A stretch of 26,290 bases of DNA from a virus. Positions 2,443 through 20,318 of this stretch are shown piece after piece; position 1 is the first letter of the stretch, and each line of letters opens with the position of its first letter. Under the pieces are notes generated by a model, which did no database searches, had not been told where the DNA came from, and saw nothing but the letters and a program-made list of their open reading frames with translations. The position numbers and the translations under genes were made by a program. The stretch is from positions 1 to 26,290 of the IMG/VR virus record IMGVR_UViG_3300042387_001247. The stretch is one strand, 5' to 3'.

Positions 2443-3080
2443 GCGGTTTCCTTGGTGCGCTTGGTGGTGGGGTAAAGGTTGCGGATGTATTCGCGGTCAG
2501 GCGTGGGCAGGCCAGACCAGACGGCAGTAGCGAACTCTTCGCCTAGGTCTTTGGCTGCATCCCATTCCTGCTTAACGCCTAGGTCTCGCTGCTCGGCCAC
2601 ATGCTCGCTGATGGCGTTGCGCACCTTCATCACAAGGGTGCGGTCGATCTTCGGCGCCTCTAGCTCGGGCGGCTCATAGCCTGATTCGAGCGGCAGCTTG
2701 GCCCACAGCTCATAGGCAAGCCCGAAGGTCATCGCAGCGGCCATACAGACCCCGCGGCGGTGCGTATCGGTCAAGTCCCGGGCGGTGATCTTTTCGCGCG
2801 GGATGGCAGCGTTGCGCGTATCCATCACGGCCTGCGGCACGGCCGGCGTCGTGATGTCGTCTTTGCGGAAGCGGATCATCAGGTAGCAGCCGACAGGCGC
2901 CGGGTGAAGGATGTCGCCCGCGGTCGTCGGCACCAACTCTGGCAGCCAGCCGGGGGCGTGCTCGCGCAACAAGTGCAGCGTGCGCGACCAGTTGATGTAC
3001 GAGGCAGCAAACCCACCTCCCTTGATCTGCTCGACCAGATCAGCGGTGGCGATTCCTGCAAGGTTCGGCAGTTGAGTCAT
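2439..3080 (-). CDS. Single-strand annealing protein, Sak3/DUF1071-like (213 aa)
   Basis: Probable phage annealase. The order of motifs fits DUF1071/Sak3 SSAPs: YINWSRTLHLLREHAPGW near the start, a middle strand block ending in PQAVMDTRNAAI, then DLTDTHRRGVCMAAAMTFGL and AYELWAKLPLESG. The C-terminal third is charged and helical. ATG 3080 has an AAGGAG Shine-Dalgarno and overlaps the stop of the 57-aa ORF upstream. It heads the SSAP-SSB-Ref-NinB set. The family assignment is from memory of the pattern; an HMM comparison would settle it. Confidence 0.72.
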   Translation of the reverse strand: MTQLPNLAGIATADLVEQIKGGGFAASYINWSRTLHLLREHAPGWLPELVPTTAGDILHPAPVGCYLMIRFRKDDITTPAVPQAVMDTRNAAIPREKITARDLTDTHRRGVCMAAAMTFGLAYELWAKLPLESGYEPPELEAPKIDRTLVMKVRNAISEHVAEQRDLGVKQEWDAAKDLGEEFATAVWSGLPTPDREYIRNLYPTTKRTKETA

Positions 3081-3250
3081 CGTTCGGCTCCTTGTGCAGC
3101 CTCGCGGGCGTACCGCTGGCCGATCTCTACGGTGATCTTCCGCAGCTCAATACGGCACAAGCGGCGCTCGCGCAGCATTGACGGCAGCGGGGCAGGCAGC
3201 GGCGCAAGCGATGCCTGCACGGCGGGGGTGTAGCGGTTAGGTGTGTTCAT
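3077..3250 (-). CDS. Small basic protein at head of recombination operon (57 aa)
   Basis: An unrecognised short ORF starting MNTPNRYTPAV, with a Pro/Leu-rich middle and a basic helical second half (MLRERRLCRIELRKI). It ends exactly in the ATGA overlap with the annealase start, which argues it is translated and coupled. There is no strong Shine-Dalgarno. The first gene after the leftward-unit motif at 3284-3299. Confidence 0.55.
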   Translation of the reverse strand: MNTPNRYTPAVQASLAPLPAPLPSMLRERRLCRIELRKITVEIGQRYAREAAQGAER

Positions 3251-3283
3251 GCAGCGATGGTGCCGGTTGTTGTGCTACTGCGC

Positions 3284-3299
3284 ATCGGGGGAAACCCTA
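3284..3299 (-). promoter_or_regulatory. Leftward-unit motif, copy 2 (recombination operon control region)
   Basis: Minus-strand TAGGGTTTCCCCCGAT, 33 bases before the 57-aa ORF. A weaker related sequence (CTGGGCAAACCTCTGG on plus) lies at 3314-3329, so this may be a tandem operator. A loose promoter can be drawn on the minus strand (TTGCCC, 16 bases, TAGGGT) overlapping the motif, but it is poor. Confidence 0.42.
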
Positions 3300-3561
3300 T
3301 GCTTCTGTTTTGTCTGGGCAAACCTCTGGCAAGGGTGAGCCGTCAGACTCACTCCATGCCTTTCGGCATCTCCCTCGCGGGGCAGTGTTCGCTCGCATAC
3401 AGGCTTGCATGTCACCCGAAGTACCTGCTGCTTGTTCCGGTCCCCAACTGCGTAGGCCGGTGCGGCTCGCCTGCTAGGTGGTGGCAGGGCCGGTGTAGCT
3501 TCCGGTGAGCCCATCCAGGCCCGTGACTCGTTCACCACTGCGCGACCGGACGCCAGAACGC

Positions 3562-3650
3562 AAAAAGCCCGTTTCTACTGCGTTCTGTGCTTGCCGGCGG
3601 GGCCTTTCGGCCTTGGGGATCTCTCCCCACAGAACGCATGAGAAACGGGC
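3562..3650 (-). terminator. Large leftward rho-independent terminator / structured RNA
   Basis: Arms 3567-3589 and 3628-3650 are a 23-base inverted repeat (GCCCGTTTCT plus GCGTTCTGTG, with one three-base mismatch). On the minus strand the stem ends GGGC followed by TTTTT (3562-3566). Two small hairpins fill the loop (GGCC-TTTC-GGCC at 3601-3612; GGGGA/TCCCC at 3615-3628). It would stop transcripts from the 5044-3845 operon before they enter the recombination operon. Confidence 0.75.
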
Positions 3651-3844
3651 CTCATGACTATCACGCCGGCAAGCAGTGACGCGCAAAGCATAGCGGCACC
3701 GGCTGGCGGCGTCAAGCTCATGCTTTACCCCTTACGTTTTGGAAGCCCCGCCGGCTGGTTGAGGCGCTTGGCAGGCTGATCGCAGGCGCAGCCGAAGAAC
3801 AGCCAACATCAGTAGTGTCGTGGCCTTTTCTGCGCCTGAAGAAG

Positions 3845-9935: not shown

Positions 9936-10506
9936 GCCGCAGTCGCTCTCACCAGGCCAGCAGGCCGAGGTGCGCCGTCGGCGTGTTGCCGGCGAAGGGG
10001 TGCGAGCGCTGGCTCGGGAGTTCGGCGTCGCGCCGTCGACGATCAGCAAGCTATGCGAACAATCCGAACAGGTGCGAACAGTGGCCGAGCAGGTCGCAGC
10101 GGCTCAGACGGCACTGGCCGCGCTGCCCGTTGCCCAGCAGCATGAGGCTTTGTCCCTGGCCGACAAGCTGCGCAGCATCAGCGACAACCTGGCCGCCGCC
10201 GCCATGCACGGCGCGGCCACGGCGCACCGGCTGAACGCGCTGGCCAATGCCGAGGTGGCGAAGGTCGACGACGCCGACCCGCTGAGCAACATGGACGCGC
10301 TGCGGGGTGTCGGCGTGCTGTCGAAACTGGCGAACGAATCCGCTTCGGTGGCGCTGAACCTGCTGGCGGCGAACAAGCCGACGGTTGAAAAAATTAACGC
10401 GGCCCGGCAGGCAGGTAATAAAATAGACCCCTCCAAACTGTCAGACGCTGCGCTTGAAGAGTTAGCGCGCGTTATGAGAGAAGCGAAGGGCAGCCATGCA
10501 GATTAA
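9928..10506 (+). CDS. Terminase small subunit-like protein (192 aa)
   Basis: Probable DNA-recognition subunit of the packaging motor. Residues about 10-45 form a helix-turn-helix of the resolvase/terminase type (RVAGEGVRALAREFGVAPST, ISKLCEQ), followed by long helical segments suited to ring oligomerisation. Ribosome site GGGGAGGGGCAGG precedes ATG 9928. Assignment rests on the HTH, size and position upstream of the large terminase. The last ~40 codons turn AT-richer (codons such as AAA, ATT, AAT, ATA), matching the inserted endonuclease gene next door. Confidence 0.75.
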   Translation: MAKPQSLSPGQQAEVRRRRVAGEGVRALAREFGVAPSTISKLCEQSEQVRTVAEQVAAAQTALAALPVAQQHEALSLADKLRSISDNLAAAAMHGAATAHRLNALANAEVAKVDDADPLSNMDALRGVGVLSKLANESASVALNLLAANKPTVEKINAARQAGNKIDPSKLSDAALEELARVMREAKGSHAD

Positions 10507-11149
10507 CGACGATTGGGCTAAGCCGGGGCTGTATGTCATCAGCTTTGCGAACGGCGCCCAGTATGTCGGCATGTCCTCTGTATCGGTGCGAGCCCGTCTC
10601 CTTCACCATATCTGCAAGGCCGGTCTAGGTAGTAACTTGGCATTGCATTGCGCCATGCGCAAACATGGCCTCGACAGCCTAAGCGCGGAAGCTGTATTTC
10701 TCTACCCTGACGCGGACCTGTGCGAGGCCGAGATCGCCATGATCGCCGAAAGGCGCGCAGCCGGCGTCCGCCTATACAACCTCACCAGCGGCGGCGAGGG
10801 CAGGCGCGGCTATTCGCTGACCGAACAGGCGAGAGGGAAGATCGGCGCAGCAAACCGAGACCCTGTTCGCGTTCGCGCCAGAGCGGAAGCGCTGAGGCGC
10901 CCAGAGGTCAAGGCACGGATGGTTGACGGTCAGCGCAGATCGTGGACCCCAGAGCGCAAGGCGCGCTTTGCGGACACCAAGCGCGGCGAAGCGGCGCCGT
11001 GCGCCAAGCTGCGGGCCGAGGATGTGCGCAGCATCAAGCAGAGGCTGGCCGCCATGGAGTCGTGCGCCTCTATATCTCGCTCGTTCGGAGTGACCCCGGA
11101 GGCCATCAGCAGGATCAAGTGCGGCAAGTCGTGGGCACATGTTGATTGA
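10496..11149 (+). CDS. GIY-YIG homing endonuclease with NUMOD domains (217 aa)
   Basis: Free-standing mobile endonuclease between the terminase genes. GLY (11-13) and YVG (23-25) form the GIY-YIG core, with Arg34, Glu79 and Asn95 (LYNLTSGGEG) as further catalytic-core residues. The C-terminal half is NUMOD3-like basic helices (SLTEQARGKIG...) and a helix-turn-helix (SCASISRSFGVTPEAISRIK). It overlaps both terminase genes, by 11 bases at each end, so it interrupts neither. Its lower GC extends into both neighbours. Confidence 0.9.
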   Translation: MQINDDWAKPGLYVISFANGAQYVGMSSVSVRARLLHHICKAGLGSNLALHCAMRKHGLDSLSAEAVFLYPDADLCEAEIAMIAERRAAGVRLYNLTSGGEGRRGYSLTEQARGKIGAANRDPVRVRARAEALRRPEVKARMVDGQRRSWTPERKARFADTKRGEAAPCAKLRAEDVRSIKQRLAAMESCASISRSFGVTPEAISRIKCGKSWAHVD

Positions 11150-12592: not shown

Positions 12593-13969
12593 ATGCCCGA
12601 GTTCATCATCAACGAGGCCGACTTCCTCGCGGCTTCGCGCGCACGCGAGGCCCTGCTGTACGGCTCGCTCGACGCGAAGCGCCCGCAGGCCTGGGTGCAG
12701 TTCGGGTATCCCGAGACGCTGACGCCCGAGCACCTGCTGAAGGCGTACCTGCGCGGCGGTCCCGGCTTCCGCGCCGTGCACCACATTCTCGACCGCTGCT
12801 GGCAGGAATGGCCGCGGGTGAAGCTGAAGGCTAGCGACGCCGAGACGCCGTGGGAAACACGGCTGCAGGGCATCCTCGAAAAGGTCAACGCTTGGCCGAA
12901 GCTGCAGGACTGGGACCGCCGGAACATGGTCGGGCGCTTCTCCGGTCTCATCCTGCGCGTGGCAGACGGGAAGCAGCTGCGCGAGCCGCTGATGAGGGCC
13001 TCGCGCCTGGTCGACCTGGTGCCGGTGTACGAGCACCAGCTGAAGGTGGTGGGCTGGGATAGCGACAGCAGCAGCGACACCTTCGGCCAGCCGACCATGT
13101 GGCAGTACCGCATGCGCACCAGCGACCGCCAGGACACGCAAGGCCAGCCCGAGCAGTGGGTCGACGTGCATCCGAGCCGCGTCCTGATCCTGGCCGAAGG
13201 CGCCGTCGGGGATGACTTCTTCGACGGCATCCCGCTGCTGCAGCCCGGGTTCAATGCGCTGGTCGACCTGGAGAAGGTCAGCGGCGGATCGGCCGAGAGC
13301 TACCTGAAGAACAGCGCCCGGGTGCTCAAGTTCACATTCGACAAGGACAGCGACCCGCAGAAGCTGACGCAGTCGGCCGACGGCAGCGCGAGCGGCAAGA
13401 CGCTGGGCCAGGCCATCGAGGAGAAGGCGCGCGGCCTGAACACCAACATCGACGCATCGGTGGCGGTGCAGGGTGGCGACGTGGGCACGCTACAAACCAC
13501 GATGCACGACCCACGAGGCGCCTGGGAGATCGCGGCGAACACCTTCGCGGCGGCCGTCGGCATCCCCTTCACGATCCTGTTCGGCCAGCAGACCGGCCGC
13601 TTGGCCAGCGACGAAGACAAGAAGGCCGACAACGCGCGGTGCAAGTCGCGCCAGCGCAACCTGCTCACCGGCGCCGTGACCGCGCTGATCCGCCGGCTGC
13701 AGGCGTGCGGCATCGTGGAGGCGTCGGACTTCGAGGTCGAGTGGAAGCCTCTGGATGCGATGGGCGACGGCGAGAAGGCCGACATCGCCAGCAAGCTGGC
13801 GACGATCAACAAGGACATGGTCGCCGCCGGCCGCAATGCCCCGTTCTCAGAGAACGAAGTGCGCAAGGTGCTGGACTACGAAGAAGAGCCCGAGCTCGAC
13901 GACATGCCGGGCGAGGGTGATCCGGCCGACGATGAGGGCGACCCGGGCGCGCTGCCGCCGCAGCCGTGA
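12593..13969 (+). CDS. Portal protein, DUF1073 family (458 aa)
   Basis: Portal ring subunit through which DNA enters the head. The order fits DUF1073/phage_portal_3: a wing/clip region with LVPVYEHQLKVVGW and WVDVHPSRVLILAEG, and the conserved core AVGIPFTILFGQQTGRLAS with DEDKKADNARC, then an acidic Pro/Asp-rich tail. Length is normal. ATG 12593 follows the TTCCTAGCATCG motif and has no Shine-Dalgarno. Its stop overlaps the GTG of the MuF-like gene, as usual for portal-MuF pairs. Confidence 0.9.
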   Translation: MPEFIINEADFLAASRAREALLYGSLDAKRPQAWVQFGYPETLTPEHLLKAYLRGGPGFRAVHHILDRCWQEWPRVKLKASDAETPWETRLQGILEKVNAWPKLQDWDRRNMVGRFSGLILRVADGKQLREPLMRASRLVDLVPVYEHQLKVVGWDSDSSSDTFGQPTMWQYRMRTSDRQDTQGQPEQWVDVHPSRVLILAEGAVGDDFFDGIPLLQPGFNALVDLEKVSGGSAESYLKNSARVLKFTFDKDSDPQKLTQSADGSASGKTLGQAIEEKARGLNTNIDASVAVQGGDVGTLQTTMHDPRGAWEIAANTFAAAVGIPFTILFGQQTGRLASDEDKKADNARCKSRQRNLLTGAVTALIRRLQACGIVEASDFEVEWKPLDAMGDGEKADIASKLATINKDMVAAGRNAPFSENEVRKVLDYEEEPELDDMPGEGDPADDEGDPGALPPQP

Positions 13970-15879
13970 GCCGCATCCGCCCGCGCTCGCCCATCATCCC
14001 GGGCGACACGACCGACCGCACCGGCAGCGGGCCTGTTCAGCGCCGGGCGATCCGGGCGATCCGCCAGCGCTGGGCCGGGCTCACGGCCGAGGTGCTGGCC
14101 ATCTTCGCGCGCATCCGGGTCGTCGGCGAGGTCGCGCAGAATGACCAGAGCAGCGCGCCGCGCACGGTGTACGCGCTGACGCCCGAGGAACTGGCCGCCG
14201 TAACGCAGGCGTTACGCGAGGCCTTCGACCGCTGGATCGAGGCCGTGGCCGGCGGCAGCTACCGGACGCACTGGTACGCGCAGATCGACGCCGAGGCTGC
14301 CCAGCTCGGGCTGGCGCAGAGCGCGGCGAACCTGTCGGCGCTGTCGGCCACCTACTCGGCCTCGCGGGACATCGGCTCGGCCCTCATGAGCCAGGGCTTC
14401 CAGAACCGGGTGGCCATGGCGCAGATCAAGAGCTACGAGCACTGGACCGGGCTGTCTGCCGGCGAGAAGTCGGCGCTGTCGCAGATCATCGGCCGCGGCG
14501 TGGTCGACGGGAAGAACCCGCGCGTGGTGGCGAAGGAGATCGAGGCGCGCATGGGGGTGTCGCGGGCTCGGGCTGAGGGCTGGGCGCAGACCGACATCAC
14601 CGACACGCTGCGCATGGCCCGCCTGGACGAACGGGATTGGGCCGTTGAGAACCTGGGCATGGAGATCGGGCTGCTGTGGAAGTCGGCGCTGATTCCGACG
14701 ACGCGGCCGACACACGCCGTGCGCAACGGGCGCACGTACAGCAGCGCCGAGGTGCGGGACTTCTACAGCCGGGACGGCAACATCTATCGGTGCTTCCTGC
14801 CCGGCACGCGCGTGGCCGGCCGCTTCTCAGCGGGCATCCAGTCCTACTACAAGGGGCCGGCCGTGCGTCTGGTGACTGCTGCGGGCCACGAACTCGCCGT
14901 TACCGCGAATCACCCCGTGCTGACCGCCCGCGGGATGGTGCCGGCTGCAGAACTCCGCGAAGGCGATCGCCTTGTCACGAACCGCGGCCAGATCGAATGG
15001 CGTGCCGCGCGGGTAGGACAGCTGCACGGTGAGCTGGTGCCGCCCACCATCGAGCAGGTATTCGGTGCGCTTGTGCAGGCGGGCCATGAGAGCCTTGCCC
15101 GGGTGAGCCCTGTAGACCTCCACGGCGACGCGGCTCTCTGTGAGCCAGAGGTCCACGTTGTACGGGCCGATCGGGAACTGGTGTTCGCACTCGACGCCGG
15201 CAGCGCGCAGCGCCTCGACAAGCTCGCGCTCACGCACGCCGACCTTCCGGGTACGCGTGGCCGCTCGCTTGACCTTCTCAGGCAGCGGGATCTCGCGCAC
15301 GCGGGCGACGAAGTTCGCAGCGGCGACGTTGGCGCGGCGCTCGGCCGCAGTCATGTTCCTCATGCGGACGCGCTGAGCCTCGCTCGTGTCGCGCACGGGC
15401 AGGCCGAGCCGCAGCATGGTCTTCCGCAAGGTGTTGCGGTCGACGCCGGTGCGGCCGCTGATCGCAAGGATGGACTCGCCGGCCATGTGGGCGGGGTGCG
15501 CCTCGAGGGCCTTCACCTCGCGCTCGCCGCGGAGCCACTCGCGGGCGCGGAAGCCGGCGCGGTGCATCCGCTCCATGACGGTCCGGTCGCACACGCCGAA
15601 CTCGGCAGCAATGGCGGCGAAGGTGGCGCCGGCCTTGAATCGCTGGATGAACTGGTCCGCATTGAAATCAGTCATTACGAGGGGCATGTCTACGATCTCC
15701 AAGAGCGATCGGGCCTGTTGATCGCCGGTGGAATTGTCGCATCTAACTGTCACTGCTCCGTTACGGAGGTGCTGCTCGACGACGACGGAAAGCCGCTGCT
15801 GACCGACCGGGCAAAGGAGACGAGCCGCACCGAGCTCGCCCGCTGGCAGGCGCAGCAGAAGAAGGCGGCCCGCAAGTAG
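13966..15879 (+). CDS. MuF-like head morphogenesis protein containing an intein (637 aa precursor)
   Basis: Mu gpF/SPP1 gp7-type minor head protein. N-extein residues 1-275 include the usual helical region (SAGEKSALSQIIGRGVVDGK, RAEGWAQTDITDTLRMARL) and WKSALIPTTRPTHAVRNGR. The C-extein (43 residues) starts CHCSVTEVLLDDDG. The exteins meet as YR|CHC, restoring the CxC motif typical of the family, for a 318-aa product. The GTG start overlaps the portal stop. The 319-residue insert is described separately. The frame has no stop through the insert. Confidence 0.9.
   Translation: MSRIRPRSPIIPGDTTDRTGSGPVQRRAIRAIRQRWAGLTAEVLAIFARIRVVGEVAQNDQSSAPRTVYALTPEELAAVTQALREAFDRWIEAVAGGSYRTHWYAQIDAEAAQLGLAQSAANLSALSATYSASRDIGSALMSQGFQNRVAMAQIKSYEHWTGLSAGEKSALSQIIGRGVVDGKNPRVVAKEIEARMGVSRARAEGWAQTDITDTLRMARLDERDWAVENLGMEIGLLWKSALIPTTRPTHAVRNGRTYSSAEVRDFYSRDGNIYRCFLPGTRVAGRFSAGIQSYYKGPAVRLVTAAGHELAVTANHPVLTARGMVPAAELREGDRLVTNRGQIEWRAARVGQLHGELVPPTIEQVFGALVQAGHESLARVSPVDLHGDAALCEPEVHVVRADRELVFALDAGSAQRLDKLALTHADLPGTRGRSLDLLRQRDLAHAGDEVRSGDVGAALGRSHVPHADALSLARVAHGQAEPQHGLPQGVAVDAGAAADRKDGLAGHVGGVRLEGLHLALAAEPLAGAEAGAVHPLHDGPVAHAELGSNGGEGGAGLESLDELVRIEISHYEGHVYDLQERSGLLIAGGIVASNCHCSVTEVLLDDDGKPLLTDRAKETSRTELARWQAQQKKAARK
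14791..15747 (+). mobile_element. Intein (319 aa) inserted in MuF head protein
   Basis: Protein-splicing element. Block A is CFLPGTRVAG with Cys1 as first nucleophile. Block B is LAVTANHPVLT (TxxH: Thr38, His41). Block F is GHVYDLQERSG (VYDL at 300-303). Block G is GGIVASN with terminal Asn319, followed by extein Cys+1. The residue before Asn is Ser instead of the usual His, a known tolerated variant in some inteins. Between blocks B and F lies no sense-strand nuclease; that stretch is the exact antisense of a homing endonuclease gene. Confidence 0.92.
14827..15687 (-). CDS. Antisense homing endonuclease nested in the intein, PD-(D/E)XK/Vsr-like (286 aa)
   Basis: Two helix-turn-helix segments (about 20-45, ATFAAIAAEFGVCDRTVMER; about 70-95, ESILAISGRTGVDRNTLRK) precede a Vsr/EDxHD-like nuclease fold: VRERELVEALRAAGV, FPIGPYNVDLWL (Asp179), SRVAVEVYRAHPG (Glu190), then HKRTEYLLDGG. 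ATG 15687 is preceded at nine bases by GGAG (minus strand of 15697-15700), itself inside intein block F codons. Codons of this gene and of the intein pair triplet for triplet, so it must avoid TTA, CTA and TCA to keep the intein open. The last ~35 residues lie opposite intein blocks A-B and may be a passive extension. Confidence 0.83.
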   Translation of the reverse strand: MPLVMTDFNADQFIQRFKAGATFAAIAAEFGVCDRTVMERMHRAGFRAREWLRGEREVKALEAHPAHMAGESILAISGRTGVDRNTLRKTMLRLGLPVRDTSEAQRVRMRNMTAAERRANVAAANFVARVREIPLPEKVKRAATRTRKVGVRERELVEALRAAGVECEHQFPIGPYNVDLWLTESRVAVEVYRAHPGKALMARLHKRTEYLLDGGRHQLTVQLSYPRGTPFDLAAVRDKAIAFAEFCSRHHPAGGQHGVIRGNGEFVARSSHQTHGRPLVVGLDAR

Positions 15880-18481: not shown

Positions 18482-18493
18482 TTCCTAGCATCG
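18482..18493 (+). promoter_or_regulatory. TTCCTAGCATCG late-gene start motif (protease)
   Basis: Exact motif six bases before the ATG of the DUF2213 gene, which has no Shine-Dalgarno. A TTGGCA at 18460-18465 is 20 bases from TAGCAT, too far for an ordinary -35. Confidence 0.5.
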
Positions 18494-18499
18494 CGCCGC

Positions 18500-19843
18500 A
18501 TGAAGCACACCCGTGTCCATGTCCTGTCGGCCGTCAACGCCGGCGCGGTCTCGAAGTCCGGCGGCCGGTACACGGTCGCCAACGTCTGCGGCGCCGTCGA
18601 CGGCATCGTGATGAATGGGATGGCCTACATGGCCGACCAGCTCGCAGCCGGCGCCCCGTCCCTCGAAGGCAAGCCCGCCCCCGCCGGCCACCCGAAGGAC
18701 GACGCAGGCCGCTACATCAGCGCGCTGAGCGGGAACGCCCTGCTGACCAGCTACGCCGGCGCCGTGTGCACCAACGTCCGCCACGAAGGCGGCCGGACGC
18801 TGTACGACGTGGTCGTCAACGAGGCCCAGGCCAAGGCGCACCCCGACGGCGCGAAGCTGGTCGATCGGCTCGACGCGGCCATGAACGGCAGCAACGCCGA
18901 GCCGATCCACGTGAGCACCGGCCTCTTCTGCAAGGCCATCACCGCGAACGGCGAGAGCCTGGGCAAGAAGTACCAGCGCATCGCTACCGAGATCGTCTAT
19001 GACCACTCGGCCTTCCTGCTGAACGAGAGCGGCGCCGGCACGCCCGAGCAGGGCGTCGGCATGTTCCTGAACGCGGCCGGCGAGGCTGAACAAGTCGAAG
19101 CCGTGACCGTCAACGAAGCGCTGGACCGCCGCGGCGAGGGCTTCGCCGGATGGGCTGAGAGCCTGCTGCGCAAACTGCTCGGCAACGAGGACGAACTCAG
19201 CCTCGATCAGATCCGCGAGGGCCTCTACAAGGCCCTTCCCGAAGGCGGCTGGGTGCGCGAGGTCTTCGCCCGCTACGCCGTCTGGTCCGACCGTGACGGC
19301 CGCATGTACCGCCAGGACTACACCGTGGCTTCGGATGGGTCGTCCGTAGCATTTTCTGGGACTGCTCAAGAGGTGCGCGAGAAGCGCGAGTACGAGCCGA
19401 TCAACAACCTGCAGAAGGACGCCATGAAGGACATGCTCACCGCCGCGCTGAACGCCGCCGGCATCAAGACCGAGGGGCTGACCGAAGCGCAGCTGCTGTC
19501 GGCCTACAACCAACACGTCAGCGCCGCGGCCGTCGCACAGGTGCAGACCAAGCTCGACGCCGCGAACGCGCAGCTGCAGACCCTGCAAGCCAACGCGCAG
19601 CAGGCCGAAGCCGCCGAGCTGGCGACGCTGGCCACCGAGCTGGCCGCCAATGCCAAGGGCCTGACCGCCGACGACTTCAAGGCCATGGGCCTGAAGCGCT
19701 GCAAGGAGCTGAAGGCCAACGGCACGACCGCTGCGCCGGTGCTGCCGGGCAGTGCCGCCGCGACCACCACGGCTGGCGCCGAGTTCGCCAGCTATGACTT
19801 CAACGCGCTGATCGACGCCGCCGACGGCGCCGGCAAGCGCTGA
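18500..19843 (+). CDS. DUF2213 prohead protease with scaffold-like C terminus (447 aa)
   Basis: Residues 1-~240 match DUF2213, the HK97/Mu-type head maturation protease: GHPKDDAGRYISA (His64), EPIHVSTGLFCK (Ser139) and IVYDHSAFLLNE (Asp168/His169) are the likely catalytic parts. Residues about 335-400 form a long Ala/Gln-rich helix (TKLDAANAQLQTLQANAQ), as expected for a fused scaffold, and the tail is Ala/Thr-rich. Encoded upstream of decoration and capsid genes. It probably directs assembly of the head shell and then cleaves itself and partners. Confidence 0.85.
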   Translation: MKHTRVHVLSAVNAGAVSKSGGRYTVANVCGAVDGIVMNGMAYMADQLAAGAPSLEGKPAPAGHPKDDAGRYISALSGNALLTSYAGAVCTNVRHEGGRTLYDVVVNEAQAKAHPDGAKLVDRLDAAMNGSNAEPIHVSTGLFCKAITANGESLGKKYQRIATEIVYDHSAFLLNESGAGTPEQGVGMFLNAAGEAEQVEAVTVNEALDRRGEGFAGWAESLLRKLLGNEDELSLDQIREGLYKALPEGGWVREVFARYAVWSDRDGRMYRQDYTVASDGSSVAFSGTAQEVREKREYEPINNLQKDAMKDMLTAALNAAGIKTEGLTEAQLLSAYNQHVSAAAVAQVQTKLDAANAQLQTLQANAQQAEAAELATLATELAANAKGLTADDFKAMGLKRCKELKANGTTAAPVLPGSAAATTTAGAEFASYDFNALIDAADGAGKR

Positions 19844-19865
19844 ACCGCACCAAAGGGAGCCGCAC

Positions 19866-20318
19866 ATGAGCCGCACCGTCTACAAAGGCCCGAACGGCCG
19901 CCAGCCCGTCACGACCGACGCCCGCGTCTGCGCGGCCGCGCTGCTGCCGTGCACGTTCGTCACCGAAAGCGCGACGCAGTTCGCCCAGGCCACCGCGCCG
20001 GGCACGACGTTCCTCCGCCTGCTGGCCGACCGTGACTTCTATAGCACGGCCCAGTTGGACGCCACGAACCCGCTGCTGACCGCCTACGCCTCTGGTGACA
20101 CGGGCATCGCCTACATCCTGGAGCCGGGCCAGCGCTACCTGGTAGCCGTGGCCGCCGCGACCTACACCTACGGCCAGGAGCTGACCGTGGGCGCTGCCGG
20201 CCGGGCCGTGGCCGCCGCGTCGACCAACCGTGTGATTGCGTTCTCTCGGGAAGCCGGTGTGCGCGCTGCCGGCGACCTGATCGAGGTCGAGATCGCCATT
20301 TCCTACGCCAAGGCCTGA
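19866..20318 (+). CDS. Head decoration-like protein (150 aa)
   Basis: Small, β-rich, Ala/Thr/Tyr-rich protein (FLRLLADRDFYSTAQLD, YLVAVAAATYTYGQELTVG, VRAAGDLIEVEIAISYAKA). Its position between protease and major capsid gene and its ~150-residue size fit capsid decoration/cement proteins (DUF2190-like pattern at the end). AGGGAG ribosome site before ATG 19866. Family by context more than by motif. Confidence 0.68.
   Translation: MSRTVYKGPNGRQPVTTDARVCAAALLPCTFVTESATQFAQATAPGTTFLRLLADRDFYSTAQLDATNPLLTAYASGDTGIAYILEPGQRYLVAVAAATYTYGQELTVGAAGRAVAAASTNRVIAFSREAGVRAAGDLIEVEIAISYAKA

Follow-up and report, generated by a model that had tools for sequence, protein, structure and literature searches.

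A phage MuF intein with a predicted homing endonuclease encoded codon against codon on the complementary strand

Canonical inteins carry a LAGLIDADG or HNH endonuclease in frame between splicing blocks B and F. Another configuration was reportedly described by Dassa et al. in 2009, in which fractured genes are associated with split inteins and EDxHD endonucleases. Long, conserved overlaps between two proteins encoded on opposite strands have been disputed, since GC-rich genomes commonly give rise to open antisense frames as artefacts. The ShiLan insertion, reported in phage methylases in 2025, contains an out-of-frame HNH endonuclease on the same strand and lacks both a splicing domain and a detectable ribosome site (PMC11855218). 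An intein in MuF is mentioned in a paper on Jerseyviruses, and the relevant passages describe no antisense gene (PMC8425127). An intein with an antisense nuclease was not found in full-text searches of an open library; a mention in the subscription literature is not excluded.

The sequence analysed here (hereafter, the window) is the whole of a 26,290-base virus record with a GC content of 68%, in which the gene order is terminase, portal, and MuF. The gene for the terminase large subunit is immediately preceded by a second homing endonuclease gene (10496–11149, plus strand; phrog_314, 4.2e-13). The MuF gene was identified by matches to phrog_758 (1.5e-71) and Pfam Phage_Mu_F (2.3e-5), and the following features overlap in it:

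13966–15879, plus strand: gene for a MuF-type minor head protein with the intein inside, a 637-aa precursor in one continuous frame
14791–15747, plus strand: intein of 319 codons, Cys1 to Asn319, with junctions R/CFLPGT and VASN/CHC (slashes mark the junctions)
15687–14827, minus strand: antisense homing endonuclease gene, from the ATG at 15687 to the stop at 14827, encoding 286 aa and sharing the codon register of the intein

The sense protein is a Hint intein. Pfam Intein_splicing matched the window (3.2e-6) and 82 of 83 relatives, and the intein profile matched known or solved inteins, such as PI-MtuI (2.7e-10). In an alignment of 83 rows, Cys1, His41, and Asn319 were invariant, the last being followed by Cys, and every feature that we demanded of a Hint fold was present, i.e., a Cys or Ser start, block A, block B with TxNH, block F, and block G with Asn followed by Cys, Ser, or Thr. 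The initial annotation had placed these splicing blocks in the sense frame of the MuF ORF, and its coordinates were right; splicing activity is inferred. In the model of the sense frame, the Hint domain and an extra segment at residues ~82–150 were confident, and residues 155–279 were disordered.

As had also been claimed, the 286-codon nuclease frame opposite the intein shares its triplet boundaries, and neither frame contains a stop. Taken alone, the window is weak evidence for two genes. Under the codon usage of the exteins, only ~2.3 TTA, CTA, or TCA codons were expected in its nuclease core, with a probability of ~0.085 of observing none, and the double open frame there could be due to chance. 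An unrelated in-register antisense ORF of 463 aa (18485–19876, minus strand) is also present in the window, over a phrog_760 gene (18500–19843); it is GC-driven and without known meaning. For these reasons, relatives of the nuclease were examined.

A tblastn search retrieved 43 phage records, and in those that were fetched, genes for head morphogenesis, or genes related to these, had the nuclease in antisense orientation. When IMG/VR and GTDB genomes were scanned, two overlapping queries gave 291 and 182 confirmed relatives, respectively, and 16 genome loci were also obtained. Frames were compared across 185 loci with GC contents of 42–72%, including 32 loci below 50%. The same register without any sense stop was found in 184 of the 185 loci; the other two opposite frames contained many stops. 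No TTA, CTA, or TCA codon was present in the nuclease cores (134 distinct cores, 30,726 codons), compared with 569 expected from host codon usage, and the corresponding values for loci with GC <50% were 0 and 227. Other A-ending four-fold codons accounted for 7–23% in the same nuclease genes. The nominal log10 P of this deficit is −279; this value assumes independence and, because the loci were treated as independent, is overstated and readable only as overwhelming. The nuclease had been proposed to be obliged to avoid these three codons, and this is what the cores show, since each of them would be a stop in an essential head gene. The positions of substitutions point in the same direction: among 19 disjoint pairs, core differences at sense positions 1, 2, and 3 numbered 965:309:555 (1122:942:1913 in the exteins), and sense position 1 is nuclease position 3 (wobble), so that the core evolves as a minus-strand protein.

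The sole exception among the 185 loci is also the only free-standing nuclease relative found (L092, about 3043–3843). The MuF gene beside it is uninterrupted (..IHPGCRCSC..), and its sense register contains four stops, which makes this locus a natural control for the openness of the sense frame. It may also be regarded as a possible ancestral or collaborating homing nuclease. A reverse search from the intein frame gave 78 loci, of which 75 were tested, and the antisense core was free of stops in 73. The two remaining loci, L257 and L295, had a single nuclease stop each (at intein residues 220 and 192, respectively) with the intein frame open; these are decaying copies, for which one such stop is expected. 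In Salmonella phage vB_StyS-sam (L198), a 402-nt piece of the nuclease (2685–3086, plus strand) was annotated as hypothetical protein ORF43. Overall, the antisense register, the absence of TTA, CTA, and TCA, and the open sense frame were all conserved in homologues, and frequent stops in the intein frame, which would have refuted the initial annotation, were not seen. The arrangement that it described, an in-register nuclease ORF on the opposite strand, is thus confirmed, chance being excluded by the relatives rather than by the window.

Two regions were assigned in the nuclease, whose structural model (AlphaFold, pLDDT 94.2) places a nuclease fold after a series of helical DNA-binding repeats:

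15558–15687, minus strand: first helix-turn-helix region, nuclease residues ~1–43 (Pfam HTH_23, 3.2e-6; model helices at 7–43)
14926–15237, minus strand: EDxHD/Vsr-like catalytic domain, residues ~151–254 (profile matches to 3hrl at positions 150–249 and to 3r3p at 153–231)

The best solved folds according to Foldseek were I-Bth0305I (3r3p) and Vsr (1cw0), both with a probability of 1.00, although the E-values were 0.02–0.12. A phmmer search of the PDB with the single nuclease sequence found no relative, whereas the profile matched a Vsr-like protein (3hrl, 3.9e-7) and the catalytic domain of I-Bth0305I (3r3p, 4.8e-5). Pfam REase_MTES_1575 was detected in 56 of 76 relatives, and helix-turn-helix domains were also matched. 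Y176, N177, D179, and E190 were invariant, and E153 nearly so. With respect to the EDxHD signature, which is not confirmed in full, E153, D179, and E190 are conserved; a downstream His is common (HP/WH) and not invariant, and a final Asp was not identified. The fold and profile matches satisfy the requirement that we had set for the protein, namely a catalytic fold of the Vsr/PD-(D/E)XK-like type with a relationship to I-Bth0305I, and the nuclease-family similarity on which the original interpretation depended was found.

Several observations support a history as a homing element, with cleavage inferred. In the Jerseyviruses Ent1 and TUMS_E4, precisely the 816-nt intein is absent at HPN/CRS, and 337 of their 348 residues are identical; precise in-frame insertion is thus documented in relatives and not for the allele of the window itself. 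Escherichia coli phage BEU35 (L204) carries an antisense-nuclease intein at a second MuF site, ~25 residues upstream of the usual one. Other host genes encode dCMP deaminase, the terminase large subunit, and an unidentified protein resembling a glycosyltransferase (L013, L140, and L159). Element identity exceeded host identity in some pairs (76% vs 47% for L150/L161 and 86% vs 62% for L057/L179) and fell below it in another (71% vs 94.5% for the window and L022). Empty alleles, several insertion sites, and mismatched divergence of element and host together form the pattern of a homing element, as far as sequences can reveal it.

The antisense protein could instead be a regulator, or a nuclease directed against competitors, that is merely housed in the intein and is not a homing enzyme. 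Its N-terminus, rich in helix-turn-helix elements, would suit such a role, and the free-standing copy beside an intact MuF gene is what would be seen for an intronless or collaborating nuclease. However, the best structural matches are to a homing endonuclease and to Vsr, searches from either frame show an almost obligate linkage with the intein, and the insertion is precise, polymorphic, and laterally spread; we consider this explanation improbable.

The sense linker opposite the nuclease was also examined as a protein. It includes a motif that is coded in both directions:

15118–15129, both strands: dual-coded motif, nuclease V187-A188-V189-E190 (minus) opposite intein L110-H111-G112-D113 (plus)

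In relatives, the motif codons were GTC/ATC-GCC-GTG-GAR. The intein residues HGD (111–113), which lie in the extra segment, were at least 90% conserved in the intein alignment. Opposite them, the nuclease Ala was encoded by GCC in 127 of 132 cases and the second Val by GTG in 113 of 132, and the first nuclease position alternated between Val (GTC) and Ile (ATC), with Asp in the sense frame in either case (122/132). The choice among synonymous nuclease codons at these sites is thus fixed by the sense protein. As a constraint, this is demonstrated by the codon comparison; a functional role of HGD is inferred. Approximately 70 linker residues look constrained in the sense frame too, and the model of the extra segment could be biased by the overlapping code. 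The initial annotation had described the ~220-residue linker as the antisense of a nuclease: it is indeed that antisense, but a wholly passive linker is not supported, given the apparent sense constraint on HGD and on these ~70 residues.

These data also bear on the possibility that the nuclease is real and the sense linker is not a single chain, the intein being decayed or split, or the element being an intron at the RNA level, with the frame open by accident. No proteomic data are available, and ~125 linker residues are predicted to be disordered, which leaves some room for this. The lack of sense stops in 184 of 185 loci, against four in the free-standing copy, is difficult to reconcile with an accident, and both intein halves, the catalytic Cys1, His, and Asn, and the sense HGD are conserved or constrained; we regard it as very improbable. 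A shadow ORF, opened by GC-rich codon bias and sense conservation without any nuclease, is hardly tenable and already contradicted, since the 463-aa antisense ORF in this 68%-GC window and the non-negligible chance calculated above are outweighed by the complete lack of forbidden codons in loci with 42–50% GC, by substitutions at nuclease wobble positions, and by a confidently modelled fold (pLDDT 94) of a known homing-nuclease type. A pseudogene was rejected. A split intein or fractured gene was likewise rejected, as the host gene is not in two ORFs; the claim that its frame is continuous, unlike in the fractured-gene arrangement, was upheld for the window as well as for 184 of the 185 loci. 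A same-strand hidden endonuclease of the ShiLan type does not fit a locus with the nuclease on the opposite strand and a Hint domain.

The putative expression signals of the nuclease lie in the complement of the C-terminal splicing blocks:

15733–15741, minus strand: TGC-GACAAT, complementary to block G codons of the intein, a putative extended −10 promoter with only 4/6 matches in the hexamer
15697–15700, minus strand: Shine-Dalgarno-like GGAG, complement of block F codons (VYDLQ)
15685–15687, minus strand: nuclease start codon ATG, complement of the block F His codon CAT

It had been recognised from the window that the nuclease ATG is the complement of a block F His codon and that a Shine-Dalgarno sequence is present, and both observations are correct: block F reads GHVYDLQ, and GGAG precedes the ATG. 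A longer alternative, starting at a GTG at 15753, would extend into the extein; the start in block F is the conserved one, with a start codon at this site in 127 of the 162 loci in which block F was located (ATG, GTG, and TTG in 110, 14, and 3 loci, respectively). Block G of E. coli phage Snoke (I-I-A-H-N) has the complement GTTATGTGCTATAAT, a perfect extended −10 element located 48 nt before the start codon. The complement was TATAAT in 24 of 122 inteins (consensus TGnTATAAT). Across these 122 inteins, Ile(−4) was encoded by ATA 40 times versus 8.3 expected (P=1.6e-26) and Ile(−5) by ATT 42 times versus 19.9 expected, and residue −3 preferred A-ending codons, which create the TGn. The P value again presumes independent loci and is overstated. 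No significant codon bias was detected at −2 and −6, and a weaker preference for A- or T-ending codons was present at −7 and −8. Rare-codon pausing as the origin of TATAAT was considered; the joint bias at −5, −4, and −3 towards TGnTATAAT and the lack of significant bias at −2 and −6 argue against it, although the preference at −7 and −8 lacks an explanation. Ordinary actinobacterial inteins had no A-ending codon at −3 (0/23) and no hexamer scoring ≥5, compared with 25/52 and 17/52, respectively, in GC-matched antisense-nuclease inteins; this control is imperfect, being chromosomal and having other residues at −4. No −35 signal was seen; this would be expected of an element that has to bring its promoter along. 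Simple promoter scans of the window, Snoke, and vB_StyS-sam found no nuclease-strand site upstream of the nuclease start, because such scans demand a −35; the codon statistics of block G were used instead. The promoter signature is thus supported as strong family-wide and weak in the window, with expression from block G inferred. The suggestion that the nuclease could be expressed independently of the late operon gains support from the extended −10 element, although such expression likewise remains an inference.

Taken together, the locus is, with high probability, a mobile intein accompanied by a homing endonuclease that has a gene of its own, set codon against codon on the opposite strand; expression, cleavage, and splicing are inferred. 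The sense strand would be translated with the late head operon into a MuF precursor, from which the Hint domain would splice itself out. The minus strand would yield an independent EDxHD/Vsr-like endonuclease with helix-turn-helix DNA-binding repeats, using a putative −10 element in the complement of block G and a ribosome site and start codon in that of block F. The endonuclease may then cut MuF alleles lacking the intein, with repair copying the intein in. Selection excludes TTA, CTA, and TCA from the nuclease, as the codon statistics show. We lean, only slightly, towards the broader view that this is a widespread class of phage inteins with obligate double coding, in which the nuclease takes its extended −10 promoter, ribosome site, and start codon from the reverse of the C-terminal splicing motifs, and an HGD subdomain has a role of its own opposite the nuclease active site.

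With many independent members ranging from AT-rich to GC-rich, both readings are testable. The members include phages reported to infect E. coli (Snoke and BEU35), and naturally empty alleles exist in Salmonella Jerseyviruses. The arrangement suggests how a mobile element can uncouple its nuclease from the late operon while the essential host gene stays unbroken. It also suggests that annotation pipelines miss such genes, as MuF was called and the nuclease usually was not.

In comparison with known systems, this element shares with canonical inteins the Hint blocks A, B, F, and G, the position of the endonuclease information between B and F, and sporadic, site-specific insertion into essential genes; it differs from those inteins in that the endonuclease is encoded on the opposite strand, has start signals of its own, and is a distinct protein that the precursor never includes. 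It resembles fractured genes and I-Bth0305I in combining an EDxHD/Vsr-like nuclease with intein halves in phage genes, but its host frame is unbroken, with the nuclease overlapping that frame in antisense instead of separating the intein halves. What is new here is that block G reads in reverse as an extended −10 element, and block F as a ribosome site and start. As far as the open literature goes, the pieces are known and the arrangement is apparently undescribed. The nearest known case is the same-strand hidden endonuclease of ShiLan: in both, an out-of-frame homing endonuclease lies within an insertion that is open in the host frame, whereas the present one is antisense and in register, within a true intein, and accompanied by a ribosome site and a promoter signature.
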